The position numbers and the translations under genes are program-made. This document shows, one piece after another, positions 3,353 through 33,626 of a DNA stretch of 64,000 bases. How positions within the stretch are numbered: position 1 is the first letter of the stretch; each line of letters opens with the position of its first letter. The stretch comes from Chlorobiota bacterium (GTDB lineage: Bacteria > Bacteroidota > Ignavibacteria > OLB7): NCBI GenBank assembly GCA_028287785.1, contig JAQBOZ010000009.1, positions 186,001-250,000 on the forward strand. The letters are read 5' to 3'. Under the pieces are notes generated by a model that saw only the letters and a program-made list of their open reading frames with translations, was not told the DNA's origin and did no database searches.

Positions 3353-3484
3353 TAGCTGCTTACGCCCCGATGGGGCTGGGAAGACCGATGCCGGATATGA
3401 CTCTGAGCATCATCCACAGCATCTCAAATTGAGTCACTACCAATGATCGGCCACGAGTGGCGGGCGCGCGGAAAAGTTTTTGCG

Positions 3485-3603
3485 TTTTGGGAACAAAAGG
3501 GGAACTGTGGGAGTATTCACTTTCGAAGAGACCGGGGCACCAACCTTCGGCCTTCAAATTTGAAGCTGTGCGGTCAGGGGTGAGTCGCGCAGCTTCTTTT
3601 TTT
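3485..3603 (+). repeat. Family 1 structured repeat, unit A
   Basis: The unit opens with TTTTGGGAACAAAAGGGG. Hairpin P1 is CCGGGG (3532-3537) / CTTCGG (3545-3550) with loop CACCAAC. A palindrome CTTCAAATTTGAAG (3552-3565) follows. The terminator-like stem is GAAGCTGTGCG (3562-3572) / CGCGCAGCTTC (3586-3596) with a loop containing TCAGGGGTGAG, then T7. It forms a tandem pair with unit B. Confidence 0.8.
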
Positions 3604-3713
3604 ATGCCCATACCATTCACCACGCTTCCTGATCGCAATCTCCGGTGAATGTTTTTCTTTGCGCGTGGCGGCGGATCGCGATCGAAACCTCCAGCGGAAA
3701 ATTCTTTTCAACG

Positions 3714-3832
3714 TTTGGGAACAAAAGGGGAACGTGGCGAGTATTCCCTTGTGAAGAGACCGGGGCACCAACCTTCGGCCTTCAAATTTGAAGCTGTGCG
3801 GTCAGGGGTGAGTCGCGCAGCTTCTTTTTTTT
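3714..3832 (+). repeat. Family 1 structured repeat, unit B
   Basis: Nearly identical to unit A from TTTGGGAACAAAAGGGGAAC to the terminal T8. The stem is GAAGCTGTGCG (3790-3800) / CGCGCAGCTTC (3814-3824). The upstream flank (GATCG..AAAATTCTTTTCAACG) is shared with the D unit, so homology extends about 45 bp 5' of the block used here. I see no clear promoter in this family. Confidence 0.8.
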
Positions 3833-3932
3833 GCCTTTTTTGAATCACGGCATCGAACCGCAACGCGGGGCTACCATCCAACCATACCTGATCCATCGCG
3901 AAGGACGTTCCGGCATCCTGCTGCTCATGTGC

Positions 3933-6825: not shown

Positions 6826-7037
6826 AGTGGTTCCTGTGGTATGAATATGGAGTGAGGGGCACCGATGCGTACGGTGCCCGATGCTGGCGGGTCATCCGCC
6901 TCCCATGAAGGGCTTCTCGTATTGACCAACACGAAATCCATTCTCCCGTTGCAGTGGTCCCAGCGATAAGCATAATGCTCGCGACGAACGATTTGTAGAT
7001 GATGGTCCGATGCGCCATCCTTCAAAAAAATCACTCG

Positions 7038-7155
7038 TTTGGGAACAAACATTCCACTCGATGAGTATTCACTTTCGAAGAGACCGAGGCACCAACCTTC
7101 GGCCTTCAAATTTGAAGCTGTGCGGTCAGGGGTGAGTCGCGCAGCTTCTTTTTTT
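7038..7155 (+). repeat. Family 1 structured repeat, unit C
   Basis: P1 here is CCGAGG with CTTCGG, one G-U of unit A replaced by A-U. The terminator-like stem is GAAGCTGTGCG (7114-7124) / CGCGCAGCTTC (7138-7148), then T7. The 5' part after TTTGGGAACAAA diverges (CATTCCACTCGATG). It pairs in tandem with unit D and lies upstream of the minus-strand T9SS gene. Confidence 0.8.
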
Positions 7156-7265
7156 ATGCCCATACCGTTCGCCATGCTTCCCGATCGCAATCTCCGGTGA
7201 ATGTTTTTCTTCGCGCGTGGCGACGGATCGCGATCGAAATCTCCAGCGGAAAATTCTTTTCAACG

Positions 7266-7383
7266 TTTGGGAACAAAAGCGGAACGTGGCGAGTATTCCC
7301 TTGTGAAGAGACCGAAGCACCAACTTCGGACTTCAAATTTGAGGCTGTGCAATCAGGGGTGAGTTGCGCAGCTTCTTTTTTTT
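7266..7383 (+). repeat. Family 1 structured repeat, unit D (compensatory changes)
   Basis: The most informative copy. P1 is CCGAAG / CTTCGG, fully Watson-Crick where units A, B and E have G-U pairs. The terminator-like stem changes GCGG..TCGC to GCAA..TTGC, so both strands changed together and the pairing is kept. The loop TCAGGGGTGAG is unchanged. T8 follows (7376-7383). Confidence 0.8.
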
Positions 7384-7473
7384 GCGCCGCGCCGATATTT
7401 TCCGCCACGCATCTCTACTCTCCAAGCTCCGTGGGAACGTGCCGGTTGTAGCAGTGAGGGGTTCGTGTTCCTC

Positions 7474-7537
7474 TCAAGCTCCATCGAAGCGAGCCATCGT
7501 TGCATCCGGGGGAATGGTACGCTCCGATGGAGCTTGA
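7474..7537. repeat. 18-bp inverted repeat (one mismatch)
   Basis: TCAAGCTCCATCGAAGCG at 7474-7491 is mirrored at 7520-7537 with one mismatch and a 28-bp centre. It lies between family 1 pairs C-D and E-F. It resembles REP- or MITE-like palindromes and has no ORF inside. GCCCCGATGGGGC, also present at 3363-3375, follows near 7572. Confidence 0.7.
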
Positions 7538-7664
7538 AATCATTGGGGAAATCGTACTGCTGTAACCGGCCCGCCCCGATGGGGCTGTGAAGCGTGATGC
7601 GTTACGATCGCCACATCATGCCGCGATCCGCAATCAAAATCCTCTCTGAAAAAATTTTCCATCG

Positions 7665-7782
7665 TTTGGGAACAAAAGGGGAACGTGGCGAGTATTCCCT
7701 TGTGAAGAGACCGGGGCACCAACCTTCGGCCTTCAAATTTGAAGCTGTGCGGTCAGGGGTGAGTCGCGCAGCTTCTTTTTTT
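7665..7782 (+). repeat. Family 1 structured repeat, unit E
   Basis: Almost identical to unit B. The stem is GAAGCTGTGCG (7741-7751) / CGCGCAGCTTC (7765-7775), then T7. The sequence after the T-tract (ATGCCCATACCATTCGCCACG) is also shared with units A and C, so the repeated module includes the linker to the second unit of each pair. Confidence 0.8.
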
Positions 7783-7913
7783 ATGCCCATACCATTCGCC
7801 ACGCTTCCCGATCGCAATCCCCGATGAAATTTTTTTGGAGCGATACGCCCGGCGCATCTTCCCGCGTCGCCACGCTTCCCGATCGAAATCCCCGTCGAAA
7901 AAAAATCTCGTCG

Positions 7914-8022
7914 TTTGGGAACAAAAGCGTCGCTGGATGAGTATTCCCCCTTGAAGAGACCGGAGCACCAACTTCGGACTTCAAATTGAAGCTGTGCGGT
8001 CAGGGGTGAGTCGCGCAGCTTC
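7914..8022 (+). repeat. Family 1 structured repeat, unit F
   Basis: P1 is CCGGAG / CTTCGG, another G-U/A-U exchange that keeps the stem. The central palindrome has lost one T (TTCAAATTGAA). The terminal stem (7988-7998 / 8012-8022) is intact, but the T-tract is degraded to TTCATATATA, so termination may be weak. From 8023 to 8391 I see no gene. Confidence 0.75.
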
Positions 8023-8391
8023 TTCATATATATACCATTCCCAACGCCGAAAGCCGTCCGTTCGCCAGCTTTGTGAACATCGCGCCGATTCCCGGCTCTA
8101 TCATCCCTGAATATCACCGACGATGATCCCCTTGTTGGGATGATGAACCCGCGCATCAGAAATTTCTTCACCGCGACAACCCGTCCGCCGAACGAATCGA
8201 TTTCCCCAGGCCGCTGAAACAGCCCGCCCGTTCCGTCGCCACATCAGGGGCCGCGCGTGGAACGGCGGCAACGAATCTTGGCGCCGCGAGCGCGGATCAT
8301 GAATCATCTCCCGGCGCGGATGATTATATTCGTCCGCTCGCGGGAGATCGATCCTCATCCCGCCCATTCCCGAACGCCTCCGGACCCGATC

Positions 8392-16568: not shown

Positions 16569-16601
16569 AGCCGATGTATTTCAGCGCATCGGCTTTTTTT
16601 T
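16569..16601 (+). terminator. Rho-independent terminator after VOC gene
   Basis: AGCCGATG (16569-16576) pairs with CATCGGCT (16587-16594), followed by T7. It lies between convergent genes and ends the plus-strand VOC transcript. Confidence 0.85.
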
Positions 16602-17028
16602 ATCCACACGAGATCGGGAGAACCGTCACCAGCATTCCGCAGACGATCAGGATGGAGCCGACAATCGATTTCCACGTCAGCGGTTCGTCCAGGAAAACGG
16701 CCGCCAGAAGAATCACCATCACCAGGCTCGATTTGTCGATCGGCGCCACGGCCGATGCCTTTCCCTCCTTGAGCGCGCGATAATAGCAGAGCCAGGAGAG
16801 CCCGGTCGTGATCCCCGAGAGCACCAGAAAAACGAGGCTCCGACGGCTGATCGTTCCTATGGTCCGCACATCGCTGACGGCGAAGACTATTCCCCAAGCG
16901 ACGATCAGAATCACCACCGTCCGTATCGCGGTCGCGATATTGGAGTCGATGCCTGACACGCCGATCTTGCCGAGGATGGCCGTAAGGGCTCCGAAGAAGG
17001 CCGAGAAGAGAGCGAAAATCCACCACAT
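16600..17028 (-). CDS. EamA/DMT-family transporter, single domain
   Basis: 142 aa from ATG 17028 (MWWIFALFSAFFGALTAILGKIGV), with about five membrane helices, corresponding to one EamA domain. Drug/metabolite transporters usually have two such domains; single-domain members act as dimers. A further upstream ATG (17094) lies in the promoter zone of the RNA array, so I prefer 17028. The substrate is unknown. Confidence 0.8.
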   Translation of the reverse strand: MWWIFALFSAFFGALTAILGKIGVSGIDSNIATAIRTVVILIVAWGIVFAVSDVRTIGTISRRSLVFLVLSGITTGLSWLCYYRALKEGKASAVAPIDKSSLVMVILLAAVFLDEPLTWKSIVGSILIVCGMLVTVLPISCG

Positions 17029-17115
17029 AGCGGGTTGCCGTAGAATAAATTTCAGATATGGAACCGGATACTCGCGGGATCGTTCTCCATTCATCCTGCT
17101 TTCATCTTGTTCCGA

Positions 17116-17240
17116 TAACTTTGTACACAGTTGATGCGCCTGCGCTCAGAAATGATCCGGCAACGCAACTGGCGGGAAATCTTCCGTCGTACTACTTCTA
17201 GGAAACGCCAGCTCAGGGGATGGGGCTGGCGTTTTCTTTT
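17116..17240 (+). ncRNA. Family 2 small RNA, unit 1
   Basis: Promoter box TAACTTTG (17116-17123), with CCTG 17 bp upstream. P1 is CAGTTG / CAACTG. P2 differs from the other units but keeps a GAAA tetraloop (TCA-GAAA-TGA). P3 is GCGGGA-AATC-TTCCGT. The terminator is AAACGCCAGC (17203-17212) / GCTGGCGTTT (17225-17234) with loop TCAGGGGATGGG and a T-rich tail. The predicted transcript is about 110 nt. Changes in P1 and P2 relative to units 2-4 preserve pairing. Confidence 0.75.
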
Positions 17241-17331
17241 GCGATATAATTGCCGAACCGAATATCGCGCCACGTTTGAAATATTTTCCACGCCGCGGTT
17301 CCATATTCATTCTGTATTCATGTTCGCGCGA

Positions 17332-17456
17332 TAAGTTTGCATGCAGTTGATCGGCTGACGCCGGAAACGGTTGAAACAGATCGACTGACGGGAACACTCC
17401 CGTCGAATTACTTTCAGGAAACGCCAGCTCAGGGGATGGGGCTGGCGTTTCCTTTT
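17332..17456 (+). ncRNA. Family 2 small RNA, unit 2
   Basis: Promoter box TAAGTTTG (17332-17339), with TCTG 17 bp upstream. P1 GTTGATC / GATCGAC, P2 CCG-GAAA-CGG, P3 ACGGGA-ACAC-TCCCGT. The terminator stem is GGAAACGCCAGC (17417-17428) / GCTGGCGTTTCC (17441-17452); units 3 and 4 have GAAAAC..GTTTTC here, a compensatory exchange. Loop TCAGGGGATGGG, short T-tract. Confidence 0.75.
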
Positions 17457-17561
17457 GCGGTATCCCCGCCGGAAGGAACGTCGCCGAATTGTGTTCCGGG
17501 CCGCATTCGGCATGATTCTCAATCATCGGTAGTCGTTCATTTCCCTTTCATCTTCATACGA

Positions 17562-17686
17562 TAACTTTGCACACAGTTGATCGACTGACGCCGGAAACGG
17601 CTGAAATAGATCGACTGGCGGGAAATCTTCCGTCGTACTACTTCTAGAAAACGCCAGCTCAGGGGATGGGGCTGGCGTTTTCTTTT
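17562..17686 (+). ncRNA. Family 2 small RNA, unit 3
   Basis: Promoter box TAACTTTG (17562-17569). P1 GTTGATC (17576-17582) / GATCGAC (17609-17615) encloses P2 GCCG-GAAA-CGGC (17590-17601). P3 is GCGGGA / TTCCGT (17618-17633). The terminator is GAAAACGCCAGC (17647-17658) / GCTGGCGTTTTC (17671-17682), then T4. Used here as the reference unit. Confidence 0.78.
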
Positions 17687-17759
17687 GTAATGTCATCACC
17701 GCACTGAACAGCTCTTCTCGCCGCTGCTTTCCGTTCATTTCCCTTTCATCTTCATACGA

Positions 17760-17884
17760 TAACTTTGCACACAGTTGATCGACTGACGCCGGAAACGGCT
17801 GAAACAGATCGACTGACGGGAACACTCCCGTCGTACTACTTCTAGAAAACGCCAGCTCAGGGGATGGGGCTGGCGTTTTCTTTT
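17760..17884 (+). ncRNA. Family 2 small RNA, unit 4
   Basis: Nearly identical to unit 3, with promoter TAACTTTG (17760-17767). P3 changes from GCGGGA-AATC-TTCCGT to ACGGGA-ACAC-TCCCGT, i.e. both arms changed and pairing became stronger. The terminator is at 17845-17880 with the TCAGGGGATGGG loop and T4 after it. Confidence 0.78.
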
Positions 17885-17976
17885 GCACTGTCATCACCGC
17901 ACTGAATATTTTTTTCTGTCCGGAAATATTTTCCGTGCCATCGCTCGCCATTCATTTTGTATTCATCTCCAGATAA

Positions 17977-18099
17977 TAATTTTACGTGCAATTGATTGAC
18001 CTACGCTGGAAACGGCCGAGGCATATCAACTGATGGCGACCTTCCATCAGATTTCTCCCATAAAACGCCGGCTCAGGGACTGGGGCTGGCGTTTTTTTT
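17977..18099 (+). ncRNA. Family 2 small RNA, unit 5 (divergent)
   Basis: Promoter TTTG (17956-17959), 17 bp, TAATTTTA (17977-17984). P1 is reduced to TTGAT / ATCAA. P2 is GCTG-GAAA-CGGC. P3 is replaced by a perfect 7-bp stem CTGATGG / CCATCAG. The terminator is AAAACGCCGGC / GCTGGCGTTTT with T8; its loop is the only variant, TCAGGGACTGGG. Primary sequence is diverged but every helix is kept. Confidence 0.72.
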
Positions 18100-18147
18100 G
18101 TGCCCGTGCCATCCTGCATCATTCATATTGTCTTCATGTTCGTACGA

Positions 18148-18269
18148 TAACTTCGCATATAGTTGATGAACGAACTCCGGAGACGGATCGATCATCAGCA
18201 GACGGGTAACCTCCTGTCGAATCACTTGGAAAACGCTGGCTCAGGGGATGGGGCTGGCGTTTTCTTTTT
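18148..18269 (+). ncRNA. Family 2 small RNA, unit 6 (divergent)
   Basis: Promoter TTG (18128-18130), 17 bp, TAACTTCG (18148-18155). P1 GTTGATG / CATCAGC covaries with GTTGATC / GATCGAC of unit 3. P2 is TCCG-GAGA-CGGA, changed on both arms with a GNRA loop kept. P3 is GACGGG / CCTGTC. The terminator is GAAAACGCTGGC (18229-18240) / GCTGGCGTTTTC (18253-18264), loop TCAGGGGATGGG, then T5. The array ends here; 18270-18526 shows nothing further. Confidence 0.72.
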
Positions 18270-18526: not shown

Positions 18527-19138
18527 ATGCCGATTATCGCAACGCTTGAAGAACTGGAGCAGGTCTATGGTTTCCCCGGCGAGACCTCCACGGTCAAGGA
18601 ACTGGATTATATCACGCCGCATTACCGGGCTTATATCGATGCCTCGCCGTTTGTGGCGCTGGCAACCGGTGGCCCGGAGGGGCTGGACTGCTCGCCTCGG
18701 GGCGATCTTCCCGGCTTTGTCCGCGTTTATGATGAGCGGACGCTGATGATGCCGGATCGTCGCGGGAACAACCGGACGGACTCGCTGCGGAATATCGTTC
18801 GCGATCCGCGCACGGCGTTCCTTTTTCTGATTCCCGGAGCCGGCAACACGCTTCGCGTCAATGGTCGCGCCCATCTCTCCACCGATCCCGCGCTTCTTGC
18901 ATCGTTTGCGGTTGATGGAAAAGCGCCGCGGTCGGTGATCGTGCTTGCGGTGGATGCCGTCTATTTTCAATGCGCGCGCGCCATCGTTCGATCCGAGCTC
19001 TGGAATCCCGAGAAGCATATCGATCCCGAATCTCTTCCAAGCGCGGGGGAGATGCTGGCCGCGCTTTCTGAAAACCGCGTCGGCGGCGAGGGGTACGATC
19101 GCGAATGGAATGGCAGGGCGAAGGCCACGCTGTGGTGA
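18527..19138 (+). CDS. Pyridoxamine 5'-phosphate oxidase-family FMN protein
   Basis: 203 aa. Residues about 30-150 form the split-barrel flavin-binding fold: FVALATGGPEGLDCSPRGD, then LMMPDRRGNNRTDSLRNI, then AFLFLIPGAGNTLRVNGRA. It resembles the MSMEG_1061 branch of PPOX-like proteins rather than PdxH. These bind FMN or F420 and reduce or detoxify small molecules; the substrate is unknown. Confidence 0.8.
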   Translation: MPIIATLEELEQVYGFPGETSTVKELDYITPHYRAYIDASPFVALATGGPEGLDCSPRGDLPGFVRVYDERTLMMPDRRGNNRTDSLRNIVRDPRTAFLFLIPGAGNTLRVNGRAHLSTDPALLASFAVDGKAPRSVIVLAVDAVYFQCARAIVRSELWNPEKHIDPESLPSAGEMLAALSENRVGGEGYDREWNGRAKATLW

Positions 19139-29978: not shown

Positions 29979-32900
29979 TTAGTACTGGTGCCAGCGCGAG
30001 ACACCGTCGCTGTAGAAGCTGAAGCTTCCGGTTCCGGTGCCGGCCGAGATTGTAACCTGGGTCGAGGCGGCGTTGATCAGATCAGTGCCGTTGCGCTGAA
30101 TCGTGATGTTGTTGGTTGCCGCGTTTCCAAGCTCGTTCTTCACAATCAGGATCTTGCCGGACGGGACCGAATTGGCCGGCGGAAGCGTTACCGTAACCGG
30201 GCCGGCAGTCACATCGACGCCGACGATATCGGTTCCGGCCGGGACAGTGTACGGAGAGTTGATGTTCGAAATCGCCGCGCGGGAGAATGCAAGACCGACC
30301 GCGGGATTGCTCCATGCGACGGTGTTTGTGCCGCTGTTGTACATCAGCACCTGTCCGTTGGATGCGCCGGAACCGCTGATCTTGTCGTTGGTCACGGCGT
30401 TGGTGGCAAGATGCCGGTTGGTGACGGCGAACGTGAGGAGCTTCAGGCCGGAGATGGCGCTGTCGGCCATCTTCGAGGTTGTCACGGTTCCATTGGCGAC
30501 CTTGGATGTCGTGATCGCGTTGGCGACGATGTCGAGGTTCTGGATGCTGTTGCTCAGCGTCAGCTTCGAGTAGGGGATGCCTGCTCCCGCGATGATGTCG
30601 GCGTTGGTGATCGTACCGTCGGCGATCGTGCCGGCGTTCACCGAGTTGGCGGCGAGCGTCGGGTTTGGATACGTTCCGGTCAGGTCACCACCAGCCGCGC
30701 CGGTTGCGCCACCGGTGGCCGGAGCCGACCAGACAACACTGGTGCCGTTGTAGGTAAGAACGTCATTCGTGCTTGCGCCCGTTCCGCTGATCTTGTTGTT
30801 GGTCACCGCGCCATCGGCGATGTGCCTGTTGGTGACGGCGAACGTGAGGAGCTTCAGGCCGGAGATAGCGCTATCGGCCATCTTCGACGTGGTGACGGTT
30901 CCGTTGGCGACCTTGGATGTCGTGATCGCGTTGGCTGTGATGTCGCCGTTCTGGATGCCGTTGTTCAGCGCCAGCTTCGAGTAGGCGATGGCGGCCGTGC
31001 CGCTGACATCGGCATCGACGATCGTTCCATCGGTGATCTTTGCCGAGTTCACCGCGCCATCAGCGATGTGATTCGTGGTTACCGCATAGGTAAGGATCTT
31101 CAGGCCGGAGATAGCGCTGTCGGCCATCTTGGAGGTTGTCACGGTTCCGTTGGCGACCTTGGATGTCGTGATCGCGTTGGCTGTGATGTCGCCGTTCTGG
31201 ATGCTGTTGTTCAGCGCCAGCTTCGAGTAGGCGATCGCGGCCGTCGGGGAGACATCGGCATCGACGATCGTTCCGTCGAGAATCTTTGCCGAGGTGATCG
31301 CGCTGTTGGCGACCGTCGGGTTGGGATATGTTCCGGTCAGATCGCCGCCGGCCGCGCCGGTTGCGCCGGTGGCCGGAGCCGACCAGACAACGTTGCTGCC
31401 GTTGTAGGTAAGAACGTCATTCGTGCTTGCGCCCGTTCCGCTGATCTTGTTGTTGGTCACCGCGCCATCGGCAATGTGCCGGTTGGTGACGGCGAACGTG
31501 AGGAGCTTCAGGCCGGAGATAGCGCTATCGGCCATCTTGGAGGTTGTCACGGTTCCGTTGGCGACCTTGGATGTCGTGATCGCGTTGGCTGTGATATCGC
31601 CGTTCTGGATGCTGTTGTTCAGCGTCAGCTTCGAGTAGGCGATCGCGGCCGTCGGGGAGACATCGGCATCGACGATCGTTCCGTCAAGGATCTTTGCCGA
31701 GGTGATCGAGCTGTTGGCGACCGTCGGGTTGGGATACGTTCCGGTCAGATCACCACCAGCGGCGCCGGCCGGCGTCGGGCTTCCCCAGACGATGCTGGTT
31801 CCATTATAGATGATCGACTGATTTGTCGCGGCGCCGGTCGAGCTGATCTTCGGCAGCGTCACCGCGCCATCGGCGATGTGCGCGGTGTTCACCGCGTTCG
31901 TCAGAATCTTCAGTCCGGAGATGGCGCTGTCGGCCATCTTCGACGTTGTCACGGTTCCGTTGGCGACCTTGGATGTCGTGACCGCGTTGGCTGTGATGTC
32001 GCCGTTCTGGATGCTGTTGTTCAGGTTCAGTTTCGAGTAGGCGATAGCGGCGGCGGCGTTGACATCGGCATCGATGATCGTGCCGTCGGCAATCTTGTTC
32101 GATGTTACCGCGCCGGTTGCGATGTTCGGGTTCGGATACAATCCGGAAAGATCACCCGCGGCCGGTCCGCTCGGCGGAAGGCTGGTCGGAGCGCCGGAGA
32201 GCTTCGAGTAGGCGATGCCGCTGGCGACTTTCGCGTTGGTGATGCTGGAGTCGGCCACCTTCACGGTGGTGACGGAACCATCGGCCAGCTTCGCGGTGGT
32301 TGCGGCACCGTCGGCGATCTTCGCCGTGGTCGCCGATCCATCGGAGAGCTTGATGGTGGTGATCGCGCCATCGATGATCTTCGGCGTCGTCACTGCGGCG
32401 TCGAGAATCTTCGGCGTGGTCACCGATCCATCGGCGATCTTCGTGGATGTCACAGCGTTCGTTGCGATGGATGGGTTCGGATATGTTCCGACGAGATCAC
32501 CCGCGGCCGGTCCGCTCGGCGGAAGGCTGGTCGGAGCGCCGGCGAGCTTCGAGTAGCTGATGCCGTTGGCGACCTTTGCGTCGGTGATGCCGCCATCGGC
32601 CACTTTCTGGGTGATGATGGAGCCATCGGCGATCTTCACGGTGGTTGCGGCACCGTCGGCAATCTTCGGCGTGGTCACCGATCCGTCGGCGATCTTTGCG
32701 GTGGTCACGGCGTTTGTCGTGATTGTCGGGTTCGGATACGTGCCGGTCAGGTCGCCCGACGCCGGTCCGCTTGGCGGAAGGGAGGTCGGTGCGCCGGTGA
32801 TCTTGCTGTAGTTGATGCCGCCGATGGCGATTTTCGAATCGGTGATCGCGCCGTTGGCGAGTTTCGCGGATGTCACCGCTTCATCGGCGATCTTCTGCGT

Positions 32901-33626
32901 TGTGATGCCAAGCTCCGACACGCCGATCTGCGCCACCTGGCCTCCGCCGTCGGTGATATAAATGGACGGGTCCAGCGCAACGACGCCTTTCAGGCCGGTG
33001 CCGCTGGTCGTGATCGTGAACCTGTTGCCGCTGCGGGTGATGGTTGTGCCACCGGCGCCGACGATGTCCACGTTACCGGTAACGCCGTTCACGCTCGAAA
33101 CGCCATCGCTGTTGATCGTGATCGTGTTGCCTGCCTGCGCCACATGCGTATTGCCGCTGCCGACGATATTGACCGAGCCGGACTGGCCGTTCACATTCGT
33201 CACCACGCCACGAGCATTTGGTGAAAGCGAATCGGCGACATCGGCAAAGAGCGAGCGCATCGCAAACGGGCTGGTCGTAAGCTGCGTGCGCGGCGAAAAT
33301 TCAGGATTGTTCTCAACGGTGACGCCAAGGTAATAGGGGCGATCGAACCGCAGCGAATTAGGAAGGGGAGTAACCGAGCCGATGCCGACGTTGAACACGC
33401 CGTGCACGAACTTGACGGTCTGCGTCTCGGTATAGAGGATATTGCCACCAGTAGGAGCATCGTAAATGCTCAACTTCATGGAGCGATCGCCATCGGATAC
33501 CGGAAGCCCGGCCTGATCGGCGAAGATACCCTGGTAGCTGATGACCTTGGGAACTTGTGCCTGGGCGTTACTGACCGCCATAAAGGCGAACAGCGCCACG
33601 GCTGGAATGAGGGACCTCTTCGTCAT
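29979..33626 (-). CDS. Repetitive secreted fiber-like protein, 1215 aa
   Basis: Signal peptide (LIPAVALFAFMAVSNAQA) and an N-terminal beta domain (VISYQGIFADQAGLPVSDGDR). About 800 residues of degenerate repeats follow: GDLTGTYPNPT, then T-x-K-I-A-D-G-x-V-T-T units and SGAPTSLPPSGPA or IAYSKLxLNNSIQNGDI blocks. Such repeats resemble phage tail-fiber stems and Bacteroidota adhesins. The C-terminus (FYSDGVSRWHQY) is like fiber tips; no T9SS sorting domain is seen. DNA repeats of about 70-400 bp inside the gene are near-identical and could recombine. The long open frame on the opposite strand is a product of codon periodicity. Confidence 0.8.
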   Translation of the reverse strand: MTKRSLIPAVALFAFMAVSNAQAQVPKVISYQGIFADQAGLPVSDGDRSMKLSIYDAPTGGNILYTETQTVKFVHGVFNVGIGSVTPLPNSLRFDRPYYLGVTVENNPEFSPRTQLTTSPFAMRSLFADVADSLSPNARGVVTNVNGQSGSVNIVGSGNTHVAQAGNTITINSDGVSSVNGVTGNVDIVGAGGTTITRSGNRFTITTSGTGLKGVVALDPSIYITDGGGQVAQIGVSELGITTQKIADEAVTSAKLANGAITDSKIAIGGINYSKITGAPTSLPPSGPASGDLTGTYPNPTITTNAVTTAKIADGSVTTPKIADGAATTVKIADGSIITQKVADGGITDAKVANGISYSKLAGAPTSLPPSGPAAGDLVGTYPNPSIATNAVTSTKIADGSVTTPKILDAAVTTPKIIDGAITTIKLSDGSATTAKIADGAATTAKLADGSVTTVKVADSSITNAKVASGIAYSKLSGAPTSLPPSGPAAGDLSGLYPNPNIATGAVTSNKIADGTIIDADVNAAAAIAYSKLNLNNSIQNGDITANAVTTSKVANGTVTTSKMADSAISGLKILTNAVNTAHIADGAVTLPKISSTGAATNQSIIYNGTSIVWGSPTPAGAAGGDLTGTYPNPTVANSSITSAKILDGTIVDADVSPTAAIAYSKLTLNNSIQNGDITANAITTSKVANGTVTTSKMADSAISGLKLLTFAVTNRHIADGAVTNNKISGTGASTNDVLTYNGSNVVWSAPATGATGAAGGDLTGTYPNPTVANSAITSAKILDGTIVDADVSPTAAIAYSKLALNNSIQNGDITANAITTSKVANGTVTTSKMADSAISGLKILTYAVTTNHIADGAVNSAKITDGTIVDADVSGTAAIAYSKLALNNGIQNGDITANAITTSKVANGTVTTSKMADSAISGLKLLTFAVTNRHIADGAVTNNKISGTGASTNDVLTYNGTSVVWSAPATGGATGAAGGDLTGTYPNPTLAANSVNAGTIADGTITNADIIAGAGIPYSKLTLSNSIQNLDIVANAITTSKVANGTVTTSKMADSAISGLKLLTFAVTNRHLATNAVTNDKISGSGASNGQVLMYNSGTNTVAWSNPAVGLAFSRAAISNINSPYTVPAGTDIVGVDVTAGPVTVTLPPANSVPSGKILIVKNELGNAATNNITIQRNGTDLINAASTQVTISAGTGTGSFSFYSDGVSRWHQY

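Follow-up and report, generated by a model that had tools for sequence, protein, structure and literature searches.

A tandem array of six putative small-RNA genes behind a candidate CopR-like response-regulator box in a Bacteroidota-related genome

Some paralogous small RNAs (sRNAs), such as OmrA/OmrB and Qrr, are placed under response regulators and in turn affect surface genes or lifestyle switches. Most of the multicopy sRNAs known to be under two-component systems come from Bacillota and Pseudomonadota. As an example, the multicopy sRNAs LhrC1-5 of Listeria monocytogenes are induced via the LisRK two-component system on cell-envelope stress; their loops, including the terminator loop, bind the targets and Hfq was dispensable for the target regulation that was shown (PMC4132741). 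The CiaR-controlled csRNAs of streptococci each have a terminator and their own promoter, in which a response-regulator direct repeat (TTTAAG-N5-TTTAAG) is located some 10 nt ahead of the -10 element (PMC3091779). In Bacteroides thetaiotaomicron, FopS and GibS are paralogous multicopy sRNAs with sigma-ABfr-type promoters and are associated with RbpB, an RRM-1 type protein. FopS are about 65-70 nt long, are responsive to bile salts as a membrane stress and come from separate loci (intergenic, antisense and 3'-UTR) with a conserved 5' R1 seed and no reported response-regulator box; OmrA/OmrB and Qrr are named as paralogous sRNAs in the same study (PMC11697453).

The array described here is located on the plus strand at 17090-18269 of the window, by which we mean the whole stretch of 64,000 nucleotides that was analysed, between an EamA-type transporter gene (16600-17028, minus strand) and a PPOX-type flavoprotein gene (18527-19138, plus strand). 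Six tandem units of about 150 bp, each made up of a promoter, an RNA of about 110 nt and a terminator, were found where a previous sequence-only reading had placed them, and the whole genome holds no further copy. The promoters, each of which starts with its box, and the RNAs occupy 17090-17123 and 17128-17240 (unit 1), 17306-17339 and 17344-17457 (unit 2), 17536-17569 and 17574-17686 (unit 3), 17734-17767 and 17772-17885 (unit 4), 17951-17984 and 17988-18100 (unit 5) and 18122-18155 and 18160-18269 (unit 6), so that the box starts are spaced by 216, 230, 198, 217 and 171. When aligned, the units form single blocks of 148-152 bp in which TTCAT-N6-TTCAT, N9, ATAAnTTT, the RNA, a strong terminator and a T-run follow one another. 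All six promoters have the same anatomy: in unit 1 the direct repeat is followed by GATAACTTTG (the TAnnTTTG -7 element), unit 5 carries AATAATTTTA at -7 and unit 6 deviates from the pattern at one position.

Pairwise identity between the units was observed to be 67-96%, and the aligned spacers reach approximately 34-68%, where a random alignment of spacers already gives about half. The DNA between units is about half identical at best, with the exception of units 3 and 4, which are 96% identical over promoter and RNA and appear to have been recently duplicated. In the diverged copies the identity of the RNA body is 60-76% and lies below that of the terminator. Promoter, RNA and terminator are therefore kept as a block while the spacers drift, in agreement with the earlier view that this is a functional RNA rather than a passive repeat.

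Each unit was folded alone, and the minimum free energy structures contain P1, a P2 capped by a GNRA tetraloop (GAAA as in unit 1, or GAGA as in unit 6), P3 and a terminator stem in all six cases, with full-unit z-scores of -3.0 to -7.7. The diverged units 5 and 6 (z of -4.0 and -6.1) keep the same helices, GNRA loops, box geometry and terminator; the weakest is unit 1, where P1-P3 without the terminator give z = -0.9. In a MAFFT alignment of the six units, standard pairs form 94.9% of the pair cells and fall to 33-51% if the partner is slid by 1-3 columns. Double-sided changes were observed in 3 of the 33 pairs, a number reached by 9 of 500 shuffles, and the covariation score was reached by 39 of 500. 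With these counts and six sequences the covariation is modest, and the structure is therefore convincing from the independent folds and modest from covariation. The common structure and the tetraloop in every unit had been read correctly from the sequence. The covariation claimed at that time is real but weak, and the statement that paired changes keep every helix was too strong, with three double changes only and a P1-P3 region of unit 1 that is not unusually stable by itself. Similarly, the terminator stem held up but its loop, given previously as 12 nt, is predicted to be 8 nt. This loop, AGGGGAUG, is closed by C-G and U-G pairs and is the most conserved exposed element of the RNA; the corresponding region of unit 5 contains AGGGACUG. 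Conservation is higher in the structure and in the two loops than in the remaining sequence.

No match above the gathering threshold was found for the window in Rfam 15, where sub-threshold matches had chance E-values only, and the array thus corresponds to no Rfam family; the sequence-only reading had not recognised a known family either. The proposed search of related genomes with a covariance model came back empty: among 391 genomes of the class, the same genus being represented, no homologue of the RNA was found (60 genomes were also searched). Its matches elsewhere occur at the level expected from 391 genomes and resemble ordinary terminators or coding DNA, and the five best include ordinary terminators without sRNA features. 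Exact-pattern scans of genome and viral contig collections gave no homologue, nor did BLAST searches of plasmids and of 40 relatives. The loop motif TCAGGGRNTGRG has nine further genomic copies, none of the nine in a terminator setting, and on the sense strand no short ORF is common to the six RNAs. The earlier interpretation is partly supported by these results, which bear out its picture of structured, terminated, plus-strand tandem sRNA genes.

The main clue to function is a putative response-regulator box in the promoter, which is absent from the sequence-only reading. Each unit starts with TTCAT-N6-TTCAT-N9-ATAAnTTT, where a direct repeat of 11-bp period occupies the place of the -33 element. 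Dimers of the OmpR family usually have direct repeats of this period as their footprint. The TAAnTTTG of the array fits the Bacteroidota -7 consensus TAnnTTTG (PMC7366714). Chance matches to TTCATN6TTCATN9ATANNTTT in shuffled windows amounted to 0.00. With zero mismatches, six places were found in the 4.75-Mb genome, namely five of the array units and G000:C6:47331, which lies 42 nt upstream of an OmpR-type regulator gene (regulator A); the reversed pattern had no match in the whole genome. As the array itself served to define the box that was then searched for in the genome, the evidential weight comes from the independent match at regulator A and from the reversed-pattern controls. A relaxed pattern occurs at 18 places genome-wide versus none for its reversed control, and its additions include promoters of small secreted proteins (one set on C37, comprising two Lys/His-rich proteins, and C23), of a Phenol_MetA_deg-type outer-membrane protein and of a beta-propeller protein on C2. 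The two Lys/His-rich genes (G000:C37:14331-15200, L143) each lie 73 nt behind an ATCAT-N6-ATCAT promoter and approximately 2-3 kb from a CopR-like regulator, and a similar gene with box is present in a same-genus genome (G001:C30, L148 4926).

The match at regulator A belongs to an operon-like group on one strand (G000:C6:45195-48080, L142) with the order regulator B, kinase, TTCAT-N6-TTCAT box, regulator A. The nearest NCBIfam models are TIGR01387 (heavy-metal regulator cztR_silR_copR) for regulator A and TIGR01386 (cztS_silS_copS) for the kinase; both scores are below the curated cut-offs and the two proteins are therefore considered CopRS-like, not named members. With a position matrix derived solely from the array, other CopR-like paralogues were found near repeat variants of their own, which are ATCAT-N6-ATCAT on C37, TTCAT-N6-TCCAT on C2 and TTAAT-N6-TTAAT on C31. 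All three kinds of variant also occur in G001 beside the paralogues that match in the regulator tree. Since G001 has no strict array box, no array and no close orthologue of regulator A, these three seem to be present or absent together. The box of the array was also observed in a different family of the class, where it lies before an OEP efflux protein and a related regulator is found a few kb away, and in genome G056 TTCAT-N6-TTCAT stands in front of a small secreted Lys-rich protein and of a PepSY-like one (PepSY being judged by eye). Taken together, the box-associated genes point to an envelope/metal-stress regulon. A locus in the latter genome, which is from another family (G056:C179, L063), has three TTCAT-N6-TTCAT promoters within 1.4 kb, the third before an unassigned stretch (263-1).

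Neither Hfq (PF17209) nor CsrA (PF02599) had a match in G000, an assembly of 95% completeness, and these absences are therefore not absolute; two RRM-1 proteins were found in the genome. In addition, the window contains a second sRNA-like tandem family with six units in two groups (3441-3848 and 6993-8046, plus strand). Its upstream element TTTGGGAACAAAAGGGGAAC is ECF-like (GGGAAC) and differs from that of the array at 17090-18269. The terminator loop of this family is CAGGGGUGA, so that UCAGGGG is common to both arrays, and the unit at 7341 shows covariation of the closing pair. CAGGG(G) loops were observed at the same place of a long stem in six of six units in each array, the families being otherwise unlike, and ordinary terminators in the window have loops that are short and different. 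Our guess is that the common UCAGGGG loop is a candidate seed. It is conceivable, if somewhat doubtful, that the two sequence-unrelated arrays converged on or share this terminator-loop seed, so that separate stresses, through two-component and ECF-like promoters respectively, would feed one RNA-level response with RRM-1 chaperones and without a recognisable Hfq. Other repeats were also noticed in the window. A dispersed repeat that reads like 'RYAPMGL' (CGCCCCGATGGGGCTG...) is present at several genomic places (3363-3391 and 7572-7600 of the window and the flanks of L039/L046), and 30301-32821 is densely occupied by direct repeats, in units of 30 nt and blocks of 400 nt, inside a minus-strand ORF of 1215 aa (29979-33626). 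A YPNPA-like sorting motif can also be read in the window; together with the TAnnTTTG promoters, the RRM-1 proteins and the lack of an Hfq match it suggests a Bacteroidota-type lineage.

With a probability of roughly 0.6, we propose that the array represents six tandem sRNA genes that are switched on by a CopR-like two-component system and act post-transcriptionally, most likely by mRNA pairing with additive dose. The genes, amplified in tandem, would be transcribed independently and terminated Rho-independently to give sRNAs of about 110 nt. An OmpR-family regulator (CopR/CusR/SilR-like) would bind TTCAT-N6-TTCAT, most likely from the C6 system, whose kinase may sense envelope or metal-type stress and whose regulator would then turn on regulator A along with the six sRNA genes. 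These RNAs are likely to pair through exposed loops with C-rich mRNA sites, for which the G-rich terminator loop is the best candidate, and the copies would add up in dose. The RNA-binding partners would be the two RRM-1 proteins, rather than Hfq or CsrA.

The regulator itself might be a different member of the OmpR family, for instance PhoB or another CopR paralogue that binds similar N6-spaced repeats. At least seven related regulators are present in the genome and the paralogue boxes differ by one or two positions only. Furthermore, regulator A was found to be a fast-evolving, long-branch paralogue in the regulator tree, and therefore the true activator could instead be one of its paralogues, for example regulator B from the same operon. 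We nevertheless consider a different regulator unlikely, as the exact box occurs outside the array only before regulator A and the other inspected paralogues that have a site close by all carry different repeats. The direct repeat does look Pho-like, but its genome match sits at a CopR-like regulator, and a Pho box was rejected. It is hardly credible that two minus-strand ORFs (126 and 142 aa) are the genes and the RNA structures their by-products. These ORFs overlap by ATGA, but their third-position GC is 0.50 versus 0.67-0.77 in real neighbours, an ORF at least as long appeared in 67 of 300 shuffled arrays, and they span only part of the array. Antisense genes were rejected on codon-position GC and the shuffles, and no coding-like antisense ORFs stand against a functional RNA.

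The RNAs could also be real and regulated and yet titrate a protein through the GNRA hairpin and the G-rich loops, like a CsrB/RsmZ sponge, in place of pairing with mRNA. The better conservation of structure and loops over other sequence would suit this, as would the presence of loops containing GGA and the multiple copies. A sponge of the CsrB/RsmZ type was rejected because the 95%-complete genome gave no CsrA match, and the second array shares UCAGGGG with no GGA in that loop, so that titration seems improbable to us. It would be more surprising still if the units were duplicated promoter-terminator cassettes of recent tandem origin, with a nearly neutral RNA body and no trans-acting role. 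The restriction of the array to this genome, the low body identity of the diverged copies relative to the terminator and the weak covariation agree with such cassettes, but helices, tetraloops, box geometry and terminator persist in units 5 and 6 whereas spacers of similar age are no longer recognisable.

Under our preferred reading of additive, CopR-like-controlled sRNA genes, the match of the array promoters to the box of a metal/envelope-stress system suggests a dose-amplified RNA arm of the stress response. The array would be a sequence-new sRNA family in a little-studied, probably Bacteroidota-related lineage with no recognisable Hfq, for which a candidate regulator, candidate partners of the RRM-1 type and a defined DNA box can be named. 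This makes the evolution of sRNA dosage and RNA-level stress control without Hfq testable, and indicates that a fast-evolving regulator can be accompanied by a young sRNA array specific to the lineage.

In comparison with the known systems, the array resembles LhrC in being multicopy; its promoters have a rare box in common with a response regulator gene and may be under a similar two-component control. However, LhrC, from Bacillota, has three CU-rich sites (CUCCC/CU-rich motifs in loop A, the linker and the terminator loop) and no G-rich loop, whereas the array has AGGGGAUG as terminator loop, GAAA/GAGA as P2 loop and no sequence or Rfam match to LhrC. Membership in LhrC was rejected as no CU-rich motif is present in the array RNAs. 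The csRNAs likewise consist of several sRNAs, each with its own response-regulator-repeat promoter and terminator, but differ in repeat, spacer, regulator family member and phylum; membership was rejected since the array repeat is TTCAT-N6-TTCAT and not NTTAAG-N5-TTTAAG. FopS/GibS and the array have multicopy sRNAs, Bacteroidota-type promoters and RRM-1 proteins in common, while the array RNAs are about 110 nt long and in tandem; there is no evidence of homology to FopS, from which they differ in length and gene setting. OmrA/OmrB and Qrr differ in being Hfq-dependent, gammaproteobacterial and unrelated to the array in sequence. At the sequence level only, each copy has its own regulated promoter and terminator, as in the functional class of multicopy two-component-controlled sRNA genes. 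As far as its anatomy tells, the array would work like LhrC, the csRNAs and FopS while belonging to none of them.
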